DNA from: a virus
DNA length: 36,249 bases
Strand: one strand, 5' to 3'
Virus record (IMG/VR): IMGVR_UViG_3300043410_001642
Coordinates: 105,120-141,368 of that record
Part shown: piece by piece, positions 4,146-14,198 of the stretch
How the letters are laid out: each line of letters starts with the position of its first letter
Position numbering within the stretch: the first letter of the stretch is position 1
Program-made: the position numbers and the translations under genes
Notes under the pieces: generated by a model
The model's input: only the letters and a program-made list of their open reading frames with translations
Told to the model about the DNA's origin: nothing
Database searches by the model: none

Positions 4146-4177
4146 TTTGGAAAATTCAATAATTTTTCATATATTTA
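4146..4177 (+). promoter_or_regulatory. Bacteroidota-type promoter for 4185
   Basis: TTTG (4146-4149), exactly 20 nt, then TATATTTA (4170-4177). This matches the -33 TTTG / -7 TAnnTTTG consensus of the Bacteroidota primary sigma factor, with A instead of G at the last position. The spacer carries TTGGAAAATTCAA, also seen in promoters at 24004, 30761 and 33865. The ATG of the next gene is only 7 nt beyond the -7 box, so the transcript should have almost no leader. Confidence 0.75.
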
Positions 4178-4184
4178 CAAAGTT

Positions 4185-4478
4185 ATGACACAACAAGAAT
4201 TCAATACAAAATACAAACAATACATACCTGAAGGTTGGGGTGGATTGGAATTCGGTATACCAGAAGTTACTGATTATTTGGATAGTATTATGGATTATGG
4301 ATTAGTGAATCTACCTAATTTCAAATTACATCAAATCAAATTAAAGTTTGGTATGTGTAGATTCTATTTTGAAACATCTATGGAAAATAAAAAGCTAGAA
4401 GCGATTATTGAATTTGGAATAGAACAACAAGTGAATAATATATTAATGAAAATATTAAAAGATGGAAAACTTAAATAG
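4185..4478 (+). CDS. Hypothetical protein preceding RNA ligase
   Basis: A 97-aa soluble protein. The N-terminus (FNTKYKQYIPEGWGGLEFG) is followed by a helix around a D-Y-L-D motif and a C-terminal helix rich in I, E and Q. The start follows caaagtt just downstream of its own promoter. It overlaps the RNA ligase gene by 17 nt, implying coupled translation. It may be a partner of the ligase, but no family is recognised. Confidence 0.6.
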   Translation: MTQQEFNTKYKQYIPEGWGGLEFGIPEVTDYLDSIMDYGLVNLPNFKLHQIKLKFGMCRFYFETSMENKKLEAIIEFGIEQQVNNILMKILKDGKLK

Positions 4479-5589
4479 TGTTTGTTACATTGCGGTAATC
4501 AATGAGATTAGAGCAATTGATGGTGCTGATAACATTGAATTAGCAGTAGCAGGTGGATGGAATTGTATTACTAAAAAAGGAGAACAAAAGGTTGGTGATA
4601 TGACTATGATTGCCACAACTGATGCGGTAATTCCTTTTGAACTTTCCGAAAAGATGGGAGTTACTAACTATTTGAGAAACGGAGGAAGAGTTAAGACTGT
4701 AAAGTTGAGAGGTGTATATTCAGAGTGTTTAATCATTCCTATGAAACATATTCCATTTATGGAAAATTACTATGAAGGTAAGGATATGATGTATGCAATG
4801 AATATCTACAAATATGAACCACCTGTTAAGACCGTTCAATTAGCAAGTGGTAGAAAGATTCGTTATCAAGATAATCCAAACTTTCATGTCTATTACAAAT
4901 TCCCCAACTTAAAGAATGTGCCAGGAATGTTTAATGAGGATGACATGGTTGAAATCACTCGTAAGATTCACGGAACAAATGCCAGATATGGAATTGTTAA
5001 GAAAACTAAATTATCCTTATTTGATAAGATTAAGAAATTCTTACGATTAGCAGATAAGTGGATTGATTATGAATTCGTAGTTGGTTCTCATAATGTAGAA
5101 AAGGGTTCTGATTCACAAGGTTTCTATGATACTAATGTATGGTATGAAATTGAAAAAAAATATGACATCAAAAACAAATTATGGAAATATGTACGAGCAT
5201 ATGAACCAGCGGTAATAGGTGATGGTGTTACCCTATATGGTGAGATTTACGGAGCTGGAATTCAAAAGGGATATGATTATGGGTTGAAAGAGATTGAGTT
5301 CGTAGGATTTGATATAAAGGGTAATGGTGAGTATTTACCTACTTACAATGCTTGGGCAATAATTGAAAAACAATTAGAATTACCATATGTGAAGGTTTTA
5401 CATTATGGCGATTGGTCACAAGAAGTTCAAGATAAGTTTGTATTCAACAACTTCATCAAAGGAACAAAAGTACCACATGAAGGTATTGTAATCAAATACC
5501 ATACAGGTGAAAGACAAAAGATTGCTAAAGTAATCAACCCAGATTATTTAATCTATGGTGAGAAACATAACATTGGGGATTCACATTGA
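4462..5589 (+). CDS. RNA ligase, DRB0094/Rnl5 family
   Basis: The 375-aa protein has the nucleotidyltransferase motifs of ATP-dependent RNA ligases in order. Motif I is K168-IHGTN (adenylated lysine), III is LYGEIYG (258-264), IIIa is FVGFDI (280-285), IV is HEGIVIK (339-345) and V is around K353-K356 (QKIAKVI). Residues 1-150 form an N-terminal OB-like region (GDNIELA-like start, GRVKTVKLRG), the layout of Naegleria/Deinococcus-type Rnl5 ligases that seal 3'-OH/5'-PO4 RNA nicks. With the upstream kinase and phosphatases it can complete a heal-and-seal set. It ends just before a strong terminator. Confidence 0.9.
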   Translation: MENLNSVCYIAVINEIRAIDGADNIELAVAGGWNCITKKGEQKVGDMTMIATTDAVIPFELSEKMGVTNYLRNGGRVKTVKLRGVYSECLIIPMKHIPFMENYYEGKDMMYAMNIYKYEPPVKTVQLASGRKIRYQDNPNFHVYYKFPNLKNVPGMFNEDDMVEITRKIHGTNARYGIVKKTKLSLFDKIKKFLRLADKWIDYEFVVGSHNVEKGSDSQGFYDTNVWYEIEKKYDIKNKLWKYVRAYEPAVIGDGVTLYGEIYGAGIQKGYDYGLKEIEFVGFDIKGNGEYLPTYNAWAIIEKQLELPYVKVLHYGDWSQEVQDKFVFNNFIKGTKVPHEGIVIKYHTGERQKIAKVINPDYLIYGEKHNIGDSH

Positions 5590-5594
5590 TAATC

Positions 5595-5620
5595 AATGGG
5601 TTAGAAATAACCCATTTTTT
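5595..5620 (+). terminator. Rho-independent terminator after RNA ligase
   Basis: Perfect 9-bp stem AATGGGTTA (5595-5603) / TAACCCATT (5608-5616) with a GAAA tetraloop, then a T-run through 5620. It begins 5 nt after the ligase stop and ends directly before the next promoter, cleanly separating the two operons. Confidence 0.9.
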
Positions 5621-5621
5621 A

Positions 5622-5653
5622 TTTGGAAATGTGAGCACTTTTTCGTATATTTG
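5622..5653 (+). promoter_or_regulatory. Promoter of the NAD/PRPP operon
   Basis: Perfect TTTG (5622-5625), 20 nt, TATATTTG (5646-5653), preceded immediately by a terminator. The ATG of the PRPP-synthetase-like gene lies 19 nt after the -7 box. Confidence 0.85.
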
Positions 5654-5672: not shown

Positions 5673-6551
5673 ATGCAGATATTAAATCTAACAAACTTTG
5701 AAGAATCTAACATTAAGTTCTTCATAAATCAATTCCCCGATGGGCAACAATCTATTACCATTGATTTCAAATCGGACATTACCTTAAAGCTAGATAAAAC
5801 AATTCGTATAAAATCCAGAATGAATTCATTTAAGGATGTTGAATTGATTATTTGTGCTAATCAATCTCTGAAAGATTTGGGAGTTGAGAATGTAGAATTA
5901 TATGTTCCCTATTTTTTAGGAGGTAGAAGTGATAGAAGATTTCTAGCCGGTCAAACTAACTATCTTAAGAATGTTATTTGCCCGATTATTAATTCACAAG
6001 GATTCTCAAAAGTTTATGTAGTGGATCCTCATAGTGATGTGTTGGAAGCGTGTTTGAATAACTTTAATAAATTTACTAATAATAGTATAGTTGAATATAC
6101 ATTGGATAAACTTAATGGTCGTTCCTCTCAAACTATGTTAGTATCTCCCGATGCCGGTGCATTAAAAAAGATTTATGATATTGCTAAAGATTTCAATATC
6201 AAAAATGTAGTAACTGCATCAAAGGTTAGAGATATTGAAAGTGGTAATATTGTTAGAACCGAATTACCAACGATGGATTTAACTGATATAGAACAAATTA
6301 TTATTATTGATGATATATGTGATGGAGGTAGAACCTTTATTGAATTGGCTAAAGTAATTAAAGAACAAACGGATAAGCCGATTTATTTGGTTGTTACTCA
6401 TGGTATATTCAGTGGAGGATTTGAAAAGTTAAGTGATGTATTAGATGGTATCTTCTGCACGAATAGTATTAAAAATATTGACTTTGATATTGTTAAAGTT
6501 CAATCAAGACAAAATAGTTCAGATTTCGTAAAACAATTAAATATATTCTAA
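5673..6551 (+). CDS. Ribose-phosphate pyrophosphokinase-like enzyme (Prs or phage Adps)
   Basis: The 292-aa protein has the PRPP-synthetase architecture. YVPYFLGGRSDRRF (77-90) corresponds to the PYFxYxRQDR loop, VVDPHS (116-121) to the ribose-binding DPH loop, SPDAG (158-162) to the conserved SPDxG, K184 to the catalytic lysine, and IIDDICDGGRT (211-221) to the PRPP-binding loop. Prs transfers pyrophosphate from ATP to ribose-5-phosphate. Next to a NAMPT-like gene, phage members of this family are known as Adps, which instead makes ADP-ribose-pyrophosphate for NAD+ rebuilding (NARP1). It is slightly shorter than housekeeping Prs (about 310 aa) and reads GGRSDRR rather than the usual YARQDRK, consistent with an altered substrate. 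The choice between Prs and Adps is inference. Confidence 0.88.
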   Translation: MQILNLTNFEESNIKFFINQFPDGQQSITIDFKSDITLKLDKTIRIKSRMNSFKDVELIICANQSLKDLGVENVELYVPYFLGGRSDRRFLAGQTNYLKNVICPIINSQGFSKVYVVDPHSDVLEACLNNFNKFTNNSIVEYTLDKLNGRSSQTMLVSPDAGALKKIYDIAKDFNIKNVVTASKVRDIESGNIVRTELPTMDLTDIEQIIIIDDICDGGRTFIELAKVIKEQTDKPIYLVVTHGIFSGGFEKLSDVLDGIFCTNSIKNIDFDIVKVQSRQNSSDFVKQLNIF

Positions 6552-6554
6552 AAT

Positions 6555-8018
6555 ATGAACCCATTATTATTAACCGACGGTTACAAAACAGGTCATCATC
6601 AGCAATATCCTAAAGGAACAACTTTAGTATATTCAAACTTCACACCCCGTTCTAACAAATATGCACCGAAAGGATGTGATGAAGTAGTATCATTCGGGCA
6701 ACAAATGATTATGAAACAAATTCATGAAGCATTTGAAACGGAGTTCTTCTCTAAACCAAAGGATGAAGTATGTGGTGAGATGAAGAAAGAGTTAAGTTTA
6801 TATTTGGGAACTGAATATGATGTTACACATTTTGAGAAGTTACATGATTTAGGATATCTACCTATCAATGTTAAAGGTATTGAAGAAGGAACATTAGTTC
6901 CAATGAAAGTACCTGTATTAACAATCTATAATACATTGCCAGAGTTCTATTGGGTAACAAACTACTTAGAAACAATCATTTCTAACCTATTATGGAAACC
7001 AATGACATCTGCTACAATTGCACACACATATCGTAAGGTATTGACTAAGTGGCAAGAAAAGACAGATGCTGAAAAAGGTTGGTTTGTTGATTGGCAAGGG
7101 CATGATTTCTCTATGAGAGGAATGGATAGTATTGAAGCGACTATTGCAAGTGGATTGGGACACTTAACATCATTTAGTGGAACGGATTCATTACCTGCAA
7201 TTGGTGGAGCAAGAAAATTCTATGGAGAAGAAGGATTCGTTGGAGGTTCAGTAAATGCTACCGAACATAGTGTAATGTGTGCAGGTGGTAAAGAAGATGA
7301 AATAGAAACATTCCGTAGATTATTAAACACATATCCAACTGGCATCTTATCAGTGGTAAGTGATACATGGGATTTATGGAAAGTATGTACCGAACATATC
7401 GTAACTCTTAAAGAAGAAATCTTAGCAAGAGATGGTAAATTGGTTATACGACCTGATAGTGGAGACCCGGTTGATATTCTTTGTGGTAAGATGTTCCCAT
7501 TAGGTGCAACATTGACAGGAAGACAAATCAGCGAAAGTAAAGGTGTTATTCAATTACTATGGGAAGCGTTTGGTGGAACAACAAATGAGCAAGGATATAA
7601 AGTATTAGATTCTCATATCGGTGCAATCTATGGTGATAGTATTACAATTGATAGAGCAAATGAAATTTGTGAAAGATTAGAAAGAAAAGGATTTGCATCT
7701 ACTAATGTTGTATTAGGTATTGGTTCATTCACTTATCAGTATAACACAAGAGATACATTTGGATTCGCAATGAAAGCAACATATGTTGAAGTAAATGGTG
7801 AAGCAAGAGAAATCTTCAAAGACCCAATTACCGATGATGGTACAAAGAAATCTGCCACAGGTTTATTGGCTGTGTCAAGAGATGCATTTGGCAACATTGC
7901 TCTTAATGATAAAGTTGGTTGGGATTTAGAATCATTAGGATTATTGAAACCTATCTATGTGGATGGTGTATTCGGAGAACAAACAACATTAACTGAAATT
8001 AAAAACCGATTAAAATAA
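6555..8018 (+). CDS. Nicotinamide phosphoribosyltransferase-like enzyme (Nampt or phage Namat)
   Basis: A full-length, 487-aa NAMPT homologue. It opens with the family hallmark LLLTDGYKTGHHQQYPKGT. Residues matching human NAMPT R196, D219, H247, R311 and D313 are visible as R188 (MRG), D211 (GTDSLP), H238 (ATEHSV), R299 and D301 (RPDSGDP). The enzyme condenses nicotinamide with PRPP to NMN. In the NARP1 pathway the paralog Namat uses ADPR-PP to give NAD+ directly. The gene starts 3 nt after the Prs-like gene and its stop shares one base with the next ATG, so the three genes form a tight operon. Native substrate cannot be told from sequence alone. Confidence 0.92.
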   Translation: MNPLLLTDGYKTGHHQQYPKGTTLVYSNFTPRSNKYAPKGCDEVVSFGQQMIMKQIHEAFETEFFSKPKDEVCGEMKKELSLYLGTEYDVTHFEKLHDLGYLPINVKGIEEGTLVPMKVPVLTIYNTLPEFYWVTNYLETIISNLLWKPMTSATIAHTYRKVLTKWQEKTDAEKGWFVDWQGHDFSMRGMDSIEATIASGLGHLTSFSGTDSLPAIGGARKFYGEEGFVGGSVNATEHSVMCAGGKEDEIETFRRLLNTYPTGILSVVSDTWDLWKVCTEHIVTLKEEILARDGKLVIRPDSGDPVDILCGKMFPLGATLTGRQISESKGVIQLLWEAFGGTTNEQGYKVLDSHIGAIYGDSITIDRANEICERLERKGFASTNVVLGIGSFTYQYNTRDTFGFAMKATYVEVNGEAREIFKDPITDDGTKKSATGLLAVSRDAFGNIALNDKVGWDLESLGLLKPIYVDGVFGEQTTLTEIKNRLK

Positions 8019-8494
8019 TGGTAGTAGTTAAACCCGGAAACGATAACTTATATTATAGTAAGAATAATGTCAAAATATTTTTAGCAGGTTCTATTGAGAT
8101 GGGAGCAGCTGAAGAATGGCAGAAAGTAATTGAAGATACATTTAGACATAAATCTGAATTAGTGATATTCAATCCTCGTAGAGATGATTGGGATAGTAGT
8201 TGGGAACAAAAAGAATCAAATGGGCAATTCAACTATCAAGTTAATTGGGAGTTGGATAGATTAACCGAATCAGATATCATTTTTATGTATTTTGCACCGG
8301 ATACTAAATCACCTATCAGTTTATTAGAATTAGGATTATATGCTGGAAGTAAGAAAATGATTGTAGTTTGTCCAGATAGTTTTTGGAGAAAGGGTAATGT
8401 TGATATTGTATGTAATAGATATGATATTCCTATTTATGAAACATTGGATAAAGGAATTGGTGCTTTGAGAACCAGATTGAAAGATGTAAGATAA
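8018..8494 (+). CDS. Nucleoside 2-deoxyribosyltransferase-like protein
   Basis: The 158-aa protein has the features of the nucleoside 2-deoxyribosyltransferase-like family: FLAGSIE (21-27), FNPRRDDWD (51-59), VNWELD (75-80), SPISLLELG (98-106, with E104 at the catalytic-Glu position) and CPDSFWRKGNVD (118-129). The family cleaves or swaps N-glycosidic bonds of (deoxy)nucleosides, and the fold is related to TIR and other NAD- or nucleotide-glycosidases. The ATG overlaps the NAMPT-like stop by one base, so it belongs to the NAD/PRPP operon. It could recycle nucleobases, modify phage nucleotides or destroy a TIR-derived signal; these roles are inference. Confidence 0.82.
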   Translation: MVVVKPGNDNLYYSKNNVKIFLAGSIEMGAAEEWQKVIEDTFRHKSELVIFNPRRDDWDSSWEQKESNGQFNYQVNWELDRLTESDIIFMYFAPDTKSPISLLELGLYAGSKKMIVVCPDSFWRKGNVDIVCNRYDIPIYETLDKGIGALRTRLKDVR

Positions 8495-8495
8495 A

Positions 8496-8527
8496 TTTGG
8501 AAATGTAAAATAATAATAGTATATTTG
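8496..8527 (+). promoter_or_regulatory. Promoter for 8549
   Basis: TTTG (8496-8499), 20 nt, TATATTTG (8520-8527). It begins one base after the upstream stop; the ATG lies 21 nt beyond the -7 box. Confidence 0.8.
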
Positions 8528-9485: not shown

Positions 9486-9571
9486 AGAGAGGTGGTAGAG
9501 TTGGTTGAATACACCGGTCTTGAAAACCGGCAGATGTAAAAGTCTCGGGGGTTCGAATCCCTCCCTCTCTG
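9486..9571 (+). tRNA. tRNA-Ser (UGA anticodon)
   Basis: A class-II cloverleaf. The acceptor is AGAGAGG (9486-9492)/CCTCTCT (9564-9570) with G73. The D-stem is GTA (9495-9497)/TAC (9510-9512) with GG in the loop. The anticodon stem is CCGGT/ACCGG (9514-9518/9526-9530) with loop CTTGAAA and anticodon TGA (9521-9523). A 16-nt variable arm and T-arm GGGGG-TTCGAAT-CCCTC (one G-U pair) follow. CCA is not encoded (GCA follows). It decodes UCA and UCG/UCU-type Ser codons abundant in this AT-rich genome. Confidence 0.93.
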
Positions 9572-9579
9572 CACTTAAT

Positions 9580-9786
9580 ATGTTAGAGTTTAAGAAACCA
9601 ATACCAGTAGTAGTAGAAGGAAACAAAGATGGATATGCAATCTATGTTACTGATAGCGGAATGTTTGAAAATGATATTTGGTGTGTGGTACTATGTGAAG
9701 GTGGTGTTGTAAGACATTATCGTAGTGACCAAATCAGAATATTTTTCAATGCGACTTTTGATATAGAAAAGGATAAAACATTGTAA
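9580..9786 (+). CDS. Hypothetical protein between two tRNA-type genes
   Basis: A 68-aa protein. The ATG at 9580 is chosen because the longer frame (from 9505) would run through the tRNA-Ser. The sequence is beta-rich (IPVVVEG, YAIYVTD, WCVVLCEGGVVRHYRSDQIRIFF), suggesting a small SH3-like barrel. No family is recognised. Its last five bases overlap the acceptor strand of the tRNA-like RNA at 9782, so mRNA and RNA processing may be coupled. Confidence 0.55.
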   Translation: MLEFKKPIPVVVEGNKDGYAIYVTDSGMFENDIWCVVLCEGGVVRHYRSDQIRIFFNATFDIEKDKTL

Positions 9787-11571: not shown

Positions 11572-13218
<1,647 letters not shown>

Positions 13219-13273: not shown

Positions 13274-13283
13274 CGTATATTTG
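13252..13283 (+). promoter_or_regulatory. Promoter of the UV endonuclease gene
   Basis: CTTG (13252-13255), 20 nt, TATATTTG (13276-13283). An ATG occurs only 3 nt after the -7 box (13287), too close for a normal transcript, which supports use of the ATG at 13305. Confidence 0.75.
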
Positions 13284-13304
13284 GGTATGAAAAAGAGTCA
13301 AAAT

Positions 13305-14198
13305 ATGAACTTAGGTTATGCCTGTATTAATATGAGCATGGGTAAGAATGTATCTACCAACCGAACAATGGTTAAGAAAACCTTTGATTTGAAAGGATTA
13401 GATTATGTATCCGAACTTGCTCTTAAAAATGCTTCCGATATCATTAAGATATTAGAATGGAATCGTATGAATGGAATTAAGTTATTCCGTTTATCATCCG
13501 CTTTAATTCCTTGGGGTGATAAGTTAGATTTAACGCAACTCAAAGATTACAAAGAGATTAAGAGTGAGTTAAAGAAAGCCGGTGATTTCGCTAAGTTTTG
13601 GGGTATGAGAATCACATCTCACCCAGGCCCTTTCAATGTATTAGTATCTCCAAATGAAAATGTTGTAGAGAATACCATATCGGATTTAGAATTGCATGGT
13701 AAGATATTTGATATGATGGGATTAGAAAAATCTCCATACAACAAAATCAACATACATTGTAATGGTGTGTATGGTGATAAACAATCTGCTATGGATAGAT
13801 TTTGTGAGAACTTTAAACGATTATCACCATCAGTTCGTAAGAGATTAACAATAGAGAATGATGATAAAGGTAGTATGTATTCAGTAAGTGATTTGTTTTA
13901 TATTCATGATAAGATAAAGATACCTATTGTATTTGATTACCATCATCACCAATTTTGTACCGGTGGTTTTAGTGAAAAAGCGGCATTAGAGTTGGCAATA
14001 ACAACATGGCCTGAAGGTATTAAACCTATTGTTCACTATTCAGAATCAAAAGCATTGCATGAAAACAATAGTAAAGAAAAACCTCAAGCTCATTCTGATT
14101 ATATTAATTCATTACCAAATACTTATGGGTGTGATGTAGATATTATGGTGGAAGCTAAAGCTAAGGAATTGGCAATATTACCTTTTATTAATAAATAA
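13305..14198 (+). CDS. uvsE: UV DNA damage endonuclease (UvsE/UVDE)
   Basis: From ATG 13305 the 297-aa protein begins MNLGYACIN, the usual N-terminus of the family; starts at 13287 or 13281 would lie on the -7 box. Metal-ligand and active-site segments of the TIM-barrel enzyme are present: SHPGPF (H106), IHCNGVYGDK (H151), TIENDD (E184), DYHHHQ (D211, H213, H214), VHYSES (H244) and IMVEAK (E283). UVDE nicks DNA 5' to cyclobutane dimers and 6-4 photoproducts, starting excision repair independently of UvrABC. It sits directly after groESL under its own promoter. Confidence 0.93.
   Translation: MNLGYACINMSMGKNVSTNRTMVKKTFDLKGLDYVSELALKNASDIIKILEWNRMNGIKLFRLSSALIPWGDKLDLTQLKDYKEIKSELKKAGDFAKFWGMRITSHPGPFNVLVSPNENVVENTISDLELHGKIFDMMGLEKSPYNKINIHCNGVYGDKQSAMDRFCENFKRLSPSVRKRLTIENDDKGSMYSVSDLFYIHDKIKIPIVFDYHHHQFCTGGFSEKAALELAITTWPEGIKPIVHYSESKALHENNSKEKPQAHSDYINSLPNTYGCDVDIMVEAKAKELAILPFINK

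Follow-up and report, generated by a model that had tools for sequence, protein, structure and literature searches.

The window analysed here (a 36,249-nucleotide stretch that closes a virus record of 141,368 bases) carries a pair of genes, Adps and Namat, which by all the sequence tests applied is a NARP1 operon, followed by a DRT-like gene that overlaps the second of them, and a three-gene phage NARP1 operon is probably the best explanation of this locus. NARP1 is already known in phages and bacteria, and the new part is the DRT-like third gene. No match between the window and known phages was obtained by megablast. The features of the locus are as follows.

5595 to 5616, plus strand: terminator-like hairpin 3' of the RNA ligase gene (9-pair stem, 4-nt loop, T-rich tail).
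5623 to 5653, plus strand: promoter-like element TTGGAA-N17-TATATTTG, ending 19 bases 5' of Adps.
5673 to 6551, plus strand: Adps, ADP-ribose pyrophosphokinase-like protein of Prs fold, 292 aa (phrog_619, Adps clade, motifs, AlphaFold).
6555 to 8018, plus strand: Namat, nicotinamide ADP-ribose transferase, 487 aa (PHROG, Pfam, PDB, signature, tree).
8018 to 8494, plus strand: DRT-like gene (PF15891, Nuc_deoxyri_tr2), 158 aa, its start overlapping the Namat stop codon by 1 nt.
8497 to 8527, plus strand: exact copy of the promoter-like element, beginning 3 bases past the DRT-like gene.

Adps and Namat both start with ATG and lie on the same strand; they are separated by 3 nt, as the initial annotation had described. 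It had also placed them alone under one promoter and behind a terminator, a description which stands in part. Four exact copies of the promoter-like element were found in the window, compared with a mean of 0.05 in shuffled sequences, and with its near-copies (at 4147 and 13253) it occurs on the plus strand at positions 4147, 5623, 8497, 13253, 30762 and 33866; it is likely the phage's own early or middle promoter. Some copies then carry a near-identical AATAATTTTTCG spacer. The -7 part of the element is similar to the Bacteroidota consensus (-33/-7 type), and the element hints at a Bacteroidota host. For the terminator-like hairpin, the support comes from its position, as one such hairpin was found where shuffled sequences give 1.6. 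The pair is not alone, however: a third gene overlaps the end of Namat, and only beyond this gene does the next promoter copy occur. Because the DRT-like gene starts inside the Namat stop and copies of the element lie 5' of Adps and 3' of the DRT-like gene, the three genes look like one transcription unit.

Upstream of this unit is an RNA repair neighbourhood, comprising a HAD_SAK_2 protein (837-1415), an AAA_33 kinase-like protein (2269-2682) and an RNA ligase (4462-5589). Downstream, the phage encodes another phosphoribosyltransferase-domain protein (PF00156, 9973-10491) and a GroEL-type chaperonin (11584-13218) followed by a UvdE-type UV endonuclease (13281-14198). A single tRNA-Ser(UGA) gene (9486-9572) overlaps the called ORF 9505-9786, which is for this reason probably not real.

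The family identity proposed initially for both proteins was confirmed by matches far beyond chance, to phrog_619 (E 5.5e-64) and Pfam Pribosyl_synth/Pribosyltran for Adps, and to phrog_448 (E 3.6e-195) and Pfam NAPRTase/NAMPT_N for Namat. The AlphaFold model of Adps (pLDDT 93.5) has PRPP synthetases as its closest folds. In an Adps/Prs tree built by a quick method from 56 proteins, the window protein falls inside the 48 Adps rows (including SPbetaL1, VEcB, finno, ICP1, Constella, Staphylococcus WV, crAss and bacterial cluster copies). These are separated with an SH-aLRT of 100 from the Prs of E. coli and of five bacterial genomes, and the Prs of two giant phages also lie on the opposite side. 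Adps proteins differ from Prs by PHS[DE] in place of DLHA, by K.RD..TG.I, and by DDICDGG.TF in place of DDM.DTGGTL, this last motif varying in the SPbetaL1 and Staphylococcus WV proteins; the window protein reads PHSD, KVRDIESG and DDICDGGRTF. Judged by its sequence, the Prs-like protein is thus of the Adps type, outside housekeeping Prs. The initial annotation had taken GGRSDRR, where housekeeping Prs has YARQDRK, as a hint of altered substrate. The letters were read correctly, but the site is uninformative since proven or linked Adps vary there (YARQDRV in VEcB, YSRMDRS in SPbetaL1), one of them matching Prs, and it was rejected as a mark of specificity; known Adps do not share GGRSDRR. The motifs diagnostic of Adps are PHSD, KxRDxxTGxI and DDICDGGxTF.

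The best PDB matches of the window Namat are the SPbetaL1 Namat structures 9W5X and 9W5W (PMC12774641), with an E value of 5.6e-160 for 9W5X, mammalian Nampt being reached at about 1e-65. Namat is characterised by a clamp-helix signature (SCH), GSX-phi-X-phi-X-phi-TRD with aromatics at positions 3 and 7, and by a clamp-loop rule (SCL), which calls for Arg at position 3, or for Lys/Tyr followed by a stacking residue (PMC12774641). Residues 390-400 of the window protein read GSFTYQYNTRD, letter for letter the clamp helix of SPbetaL1 Namat and in agreement with the signature, while its clamp loop differs, K35-Y36 aligning at SPbetaL1 Arg40 (R40) in accordance with the stacking alternative. Its catalytic residues are F185, R188, D211, H238, R299 and D301, of which F185, R188, D211, R299 and D301 align with F189, R192, D215, R306 and D308 of SPbetaL1. 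A careful tree of 35 proteins split 24 Adps-linked Namat, including those of SPbetaL1 and the window, from 11 Nampt with 100/100 support. The clamp-helix signature was found in every Adps-linked protein of this tree, with SRD for TRD in crAss cr111_1, and in none of the 11 Nampt. The nearest neighbours of the window protein in the tree are from other viral contigs, followed at a greater distance by Flavobacteriaceae. By sequence, the NAMPT-like protein is thus a Namat, and the earlier proposal of a NARP1-type pair is upheld by this placement of both proteins outside housekeeping Prs and Nampt (100% support). A Namat subgroup (L130:12976-14544 and L154:5523-7220) departs from the clamp-helix pattern (GSYSMGYATRD) and contains a long insert; its substrate preference may differ.

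The locus resembles that of SPbetaL1 in having Adps then Namat back to back, and the two Namat are 53% identical. It departs from it in that SPbetaL1 has two genes, without the overlapping DRT-like gene, and in that the two Adps are only about 28% identical. Chromosomal Adps and Namat also occur in Paenibacillus foliorum, where NAD+ synthesis was shown (PMC12774641). By analogy with the NARP1 systems of SPbetaL1, DyoEdafos and P. foliorum (PMC12774641, PMC13232231), the window pair would have the same biochemical activity and anti-immunity use. In a first step, Adps would use ATP to pyrophosphorylate the ADP-ribose (ADPR) left after host NADase immunity has cut NAD+; in a second, Namat would join the resulting ADPR-PP and nicotinamide directly into NAD+, without an NMN adenylyltransferase. 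Both steps are very likely to hold, given how closely the two proteins agree in sequence and motifs with ones whose activity was proven in other systems.

The DRT-like protein matches PF15891 with an E value of 2.1e-34 (118.5 bits, for a cut-off of 30). Its AlphaFold model (pLDDT 93.5) matches the fold of 4MCJ, then those of YtoQ, deoxyribosyltransferases and the CMP hydrolase MilB. Sequence identity is about 40% to 4MCJ, an uncharacterised protein, and 12-19% to other structures of the NDT superfamily; 4MCJ was also the sole structure reached by a PDB profile search with the DRT alignment. Glu104 is invariant in 53 DRT-like sequences, and in the model it lies in a helix (99-108) after strand 3 (87-91), as does the conserved Glu of the NDT superfamily (4MCJ, YtoQ, MilB, NDTs). 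In the TIR-DrHyd-SLOG class, catalytic residues are found in the helix after strand 3, and the characterised active members all cleave N-glycosidic bonds of nucleotides or nucleosides (PMC9503650). Based on the model, Glu104 may thus be the catalytic residue.

We infer a role for this protein from its fold class, its conserved Glu, its linkage to NARP1 (see below) and an analogy with DyoEdafos, in which RyDEP, a cADPR glycosidase with a RyR domain, lies within the NARP1 locus and feeds ADPR to NARP1 (PMC13232231). In a third step, it would act as an N-glycosidase of the TIR-DrHyd-SLOG fold class, hydrolysing a nucleotide derived from NAD+ or ADPR, which would either release ADPR or nicotinamide for use by Adps and Namat or destroy an immune signal; we advance this step tentatively. 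Both loci would contain an extra gene of glycosidase type, predicted as such in our case, but RyDEP has the unrelated PF02026 fold. The whole record gave no RyR match, in a search without a positive control, and no NADAR or Macro match. Another contrast is provided by Retron-Eco1, which has an NDT effector of this fold class and defends through NAD+ hydrolysis (PMC12405507): it destroys NAD+, whereas the DRT-like gene accompanies genes for its rebuilding. Neither Namat nor DRT is covered by a PADLOC model.

Linkage was visible in viral loci. Searching viruses for Namat gave 80 loci; once the window had been added and near-identical Namats removed, 65 were left. Adps was present in 55 of these 65, and a DRT-like gene lay near Namat in 42 by profile and 40 by clustering, the next commonest neighbour families reaching 19. 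Writing A for Adps, N for Namat and D for the DRT-like gene, the gene orders were A-N-D (17 loci), A-D-N (15), N-D (6), D-N (2), N-A-D (1) and D-N-A (1). The DRT-like gene was on the same strand in all linked loci, and within 60 nt of Adps or Namat in 13. In the DRT tree, 28 of the 29 members of the window's group are linked (SH-aLRT 94); inner support is low (9 of 85 branches starred), and separate recruitments were for this reason not counted. These counts do not represent independent events, as the collections are unevenly sampled and viral loci are related by descent. Of the 65 loci, 19 encode a protein with a macro domain, which resembles BT1257 and ADP-ribose-1''-phosphate phosphatases, and 7 a NADAR protein. 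Release of ADP-ribose is known or predicted for both kinds of protein, examples of which lie at L078:3052-3570 and L010:10626-11099. Cluster C13, a HAD-like protein of some 145 aa devoid of any Pfam match, was observed in 12 viral loci, in many of them between or beside Adps and Namat (L002, L003, L005, L007, L057, L063, L072 and L075, for example), and is a possible further NARP1 accessory.

An independent scan that started from the DRT side, run with the DRT alignment over GTDB genomes, provided 80 bacterial loci. Adps or Namat lay within 8 kb of the DRT-like gene in 25 of them, nearly all from Bacteroidota and many on long contigs. According to Pfam, the neighbours in these 25 loci were NUDIX with an NrtR winged helix (22), NADAR (21), Tpt1/KptA (18), ADP-ribosylglycohydrolase (16), metallophosphatase (14), microbial PARG (8), DUF4291 (7), macro (7) and SLOG/LOG (3). 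No member of these families was found in 16 control stretches taken from the same set of genomes, and almost none in the 55 unlinked DRT-like loci. The resulting cluster looks like an ADP-ribose recycling regulon, and its DRT-like, NADAR, KptA, ADP-ribosylglycohydrolase, PARG-type and NrtR-type genes are additions relative to P. foliorum. Its Adps, Namat and DRT-like genes can be seen together with NrtR-type Nudix, NADAR, KptA, ADP-ribosylglycohydrolase, PARG-type, macro, DUF4291 and metallophosphatase genes at about 3000-16000 in L159, L163, L166, L171, L195, L211, L223 and L226. Among 120 relatives of one Flavobacterium genome, sampled evenly within one family and excluding the centre genome (chosen for having both genes), Namat was present in 9 and the DRT-like gene in 2, both of which carry Namat, 5 and 828 nt away (hypergeometric, 36/7140, ~0.005). 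Seven of the nine Namat-bearing relatives had no DRT-like gene.

Alternatively, the DRT-like protein may be an ordinary salvage or house-cleaning N-glycosidase (a nucleoside 2-deoxyribosyltransferase or a MilB-type hydrolase) acting on free nucleotides, and situated beside NARP1 as nucleotide-metabolism cargo. This is a serious possibility, if short of an even chance. Deoxyribosyltransferases and the CMP N-glycosidase MilB are indeed its closest characterised folds, and RNA-repair genes are also present in phage clusters. Moreover, DRT-like genes with the same conserved residues occur without Adps in bacteria and in phages, with a canonical Nampt in CcrColossus, Xanthomonas X1 and EliS-L02, and with neither Adps nor Nampt in Lactobacillus 3-521, where an annotated NMN transporter lies 4 kb away. 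Canonical Nampt in place of Adps was observed in the DRT-bearing phages of loci L133, L134, L135, L152, L153 and W01-W03, so that nicotinamide salvage of any kind may be what the DRT-like gene accompanies. Conversely, no DRT-like gene is found within about 2.5-3 kb of the SPbetaL1, VEcB, finno, ICP1, Constella, crAss and Staphylococcus NARP1 loci, which indicates that the pathway works without it. A residue-level specificity signal for NARP1-linked proteins was rejected, as linked and unlinked proteins differ only in frequency, at positions 70, 76 and 150. Their shared residues argue for a general rather than NARP1-specific substrate, and the enzyme may have other partners besides NARP1. Against mere cargo, the linkage persists through changes of gene order and in different viruses, it recurs in bacterial chromosomes among genes for ADPR and NAD+ enzymes, and no other neighbour family has a comparable frequency in viral loci. 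A more ambitious reading, which we regard as speculative, is that the DRT-like protein represents a new class of ADPR- or nicotinamide-liberating N-glycosidase, which would destroy an NAD+-derived immune signal or adduct and pass the product to Adps and Namat, as a third widespread part of both phage NARP1 and the Bacteroidota chromosomal ADPR-recycling cluster.

The unit could also serve general NAD+ and ADPR homeostasis rather than the evasion of NADases, with ADPR coming for instance from phage ADP-ribosylation or tRNA repair. The RNA ligase, HAD_SAK_2 and kinase-like genes nearby, as well as the bacterial relatives in NrtR-type clusters with KptA, point in this direction; yet the counter-defence effect of NARP1 is proven (PMC12774641) and cluster profiles identified no KptA-type gene in the window, so that this reading seems rather unlikely.

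As for the NMN adenylyltransferase that the initial annotation had reported as absent from the window, no NadM or NadR was recognised in the 141-kb record either; its single HIGH-superfamily match, L274, adjoins a glycosyltransferase-like gene and looks like a sugar cytidylyltransferase. Canonical salvage, in which the pair would make PRPP and then NMN for an NMN adenylyltransferase given by the host (NARP2-like), is thus very improbable: despite a fold and catalytic cores common to Prs/Nampt and the window pair, and despite NMN formation from PRPP by SPbetaL1 Namat in vitro (PMC12774641), it was rejected on both the Namat/Nampt and the Adps/Prs tree, the window Namat bears the selectivity-clamp signature and the record offers no recognisable enzyme for the last reaction.

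A DRT-like partner of NARP1 was not mentioned in the literature searched, the coverage of which was partial, some key papers lying outside it. Iyer et al. (2022) report viruses with DrHyd proteins of the cyclase type only, and describe NadV-NadM-NadR salvage rather than a link between DRT and NARP1 (PMC9503650). The three-gene reading of this locus places NARP1 in large phages with a Namat closest to Bacteroidota sequences, and makes of the DRT-like gene a specific, testable candidate for an extra enzyme. If this protein acts on ADPR-based signals, the name "nucleoside 2-deoxyribosyltransferase" would be masking a counter-defence enzyme, and the chromosomal cluster, with its ADPR recycling genes and NrtR-type regulator, would provide a physiological setting for bacterial NARP1, the role of which was stated to be open (PMC12774641).
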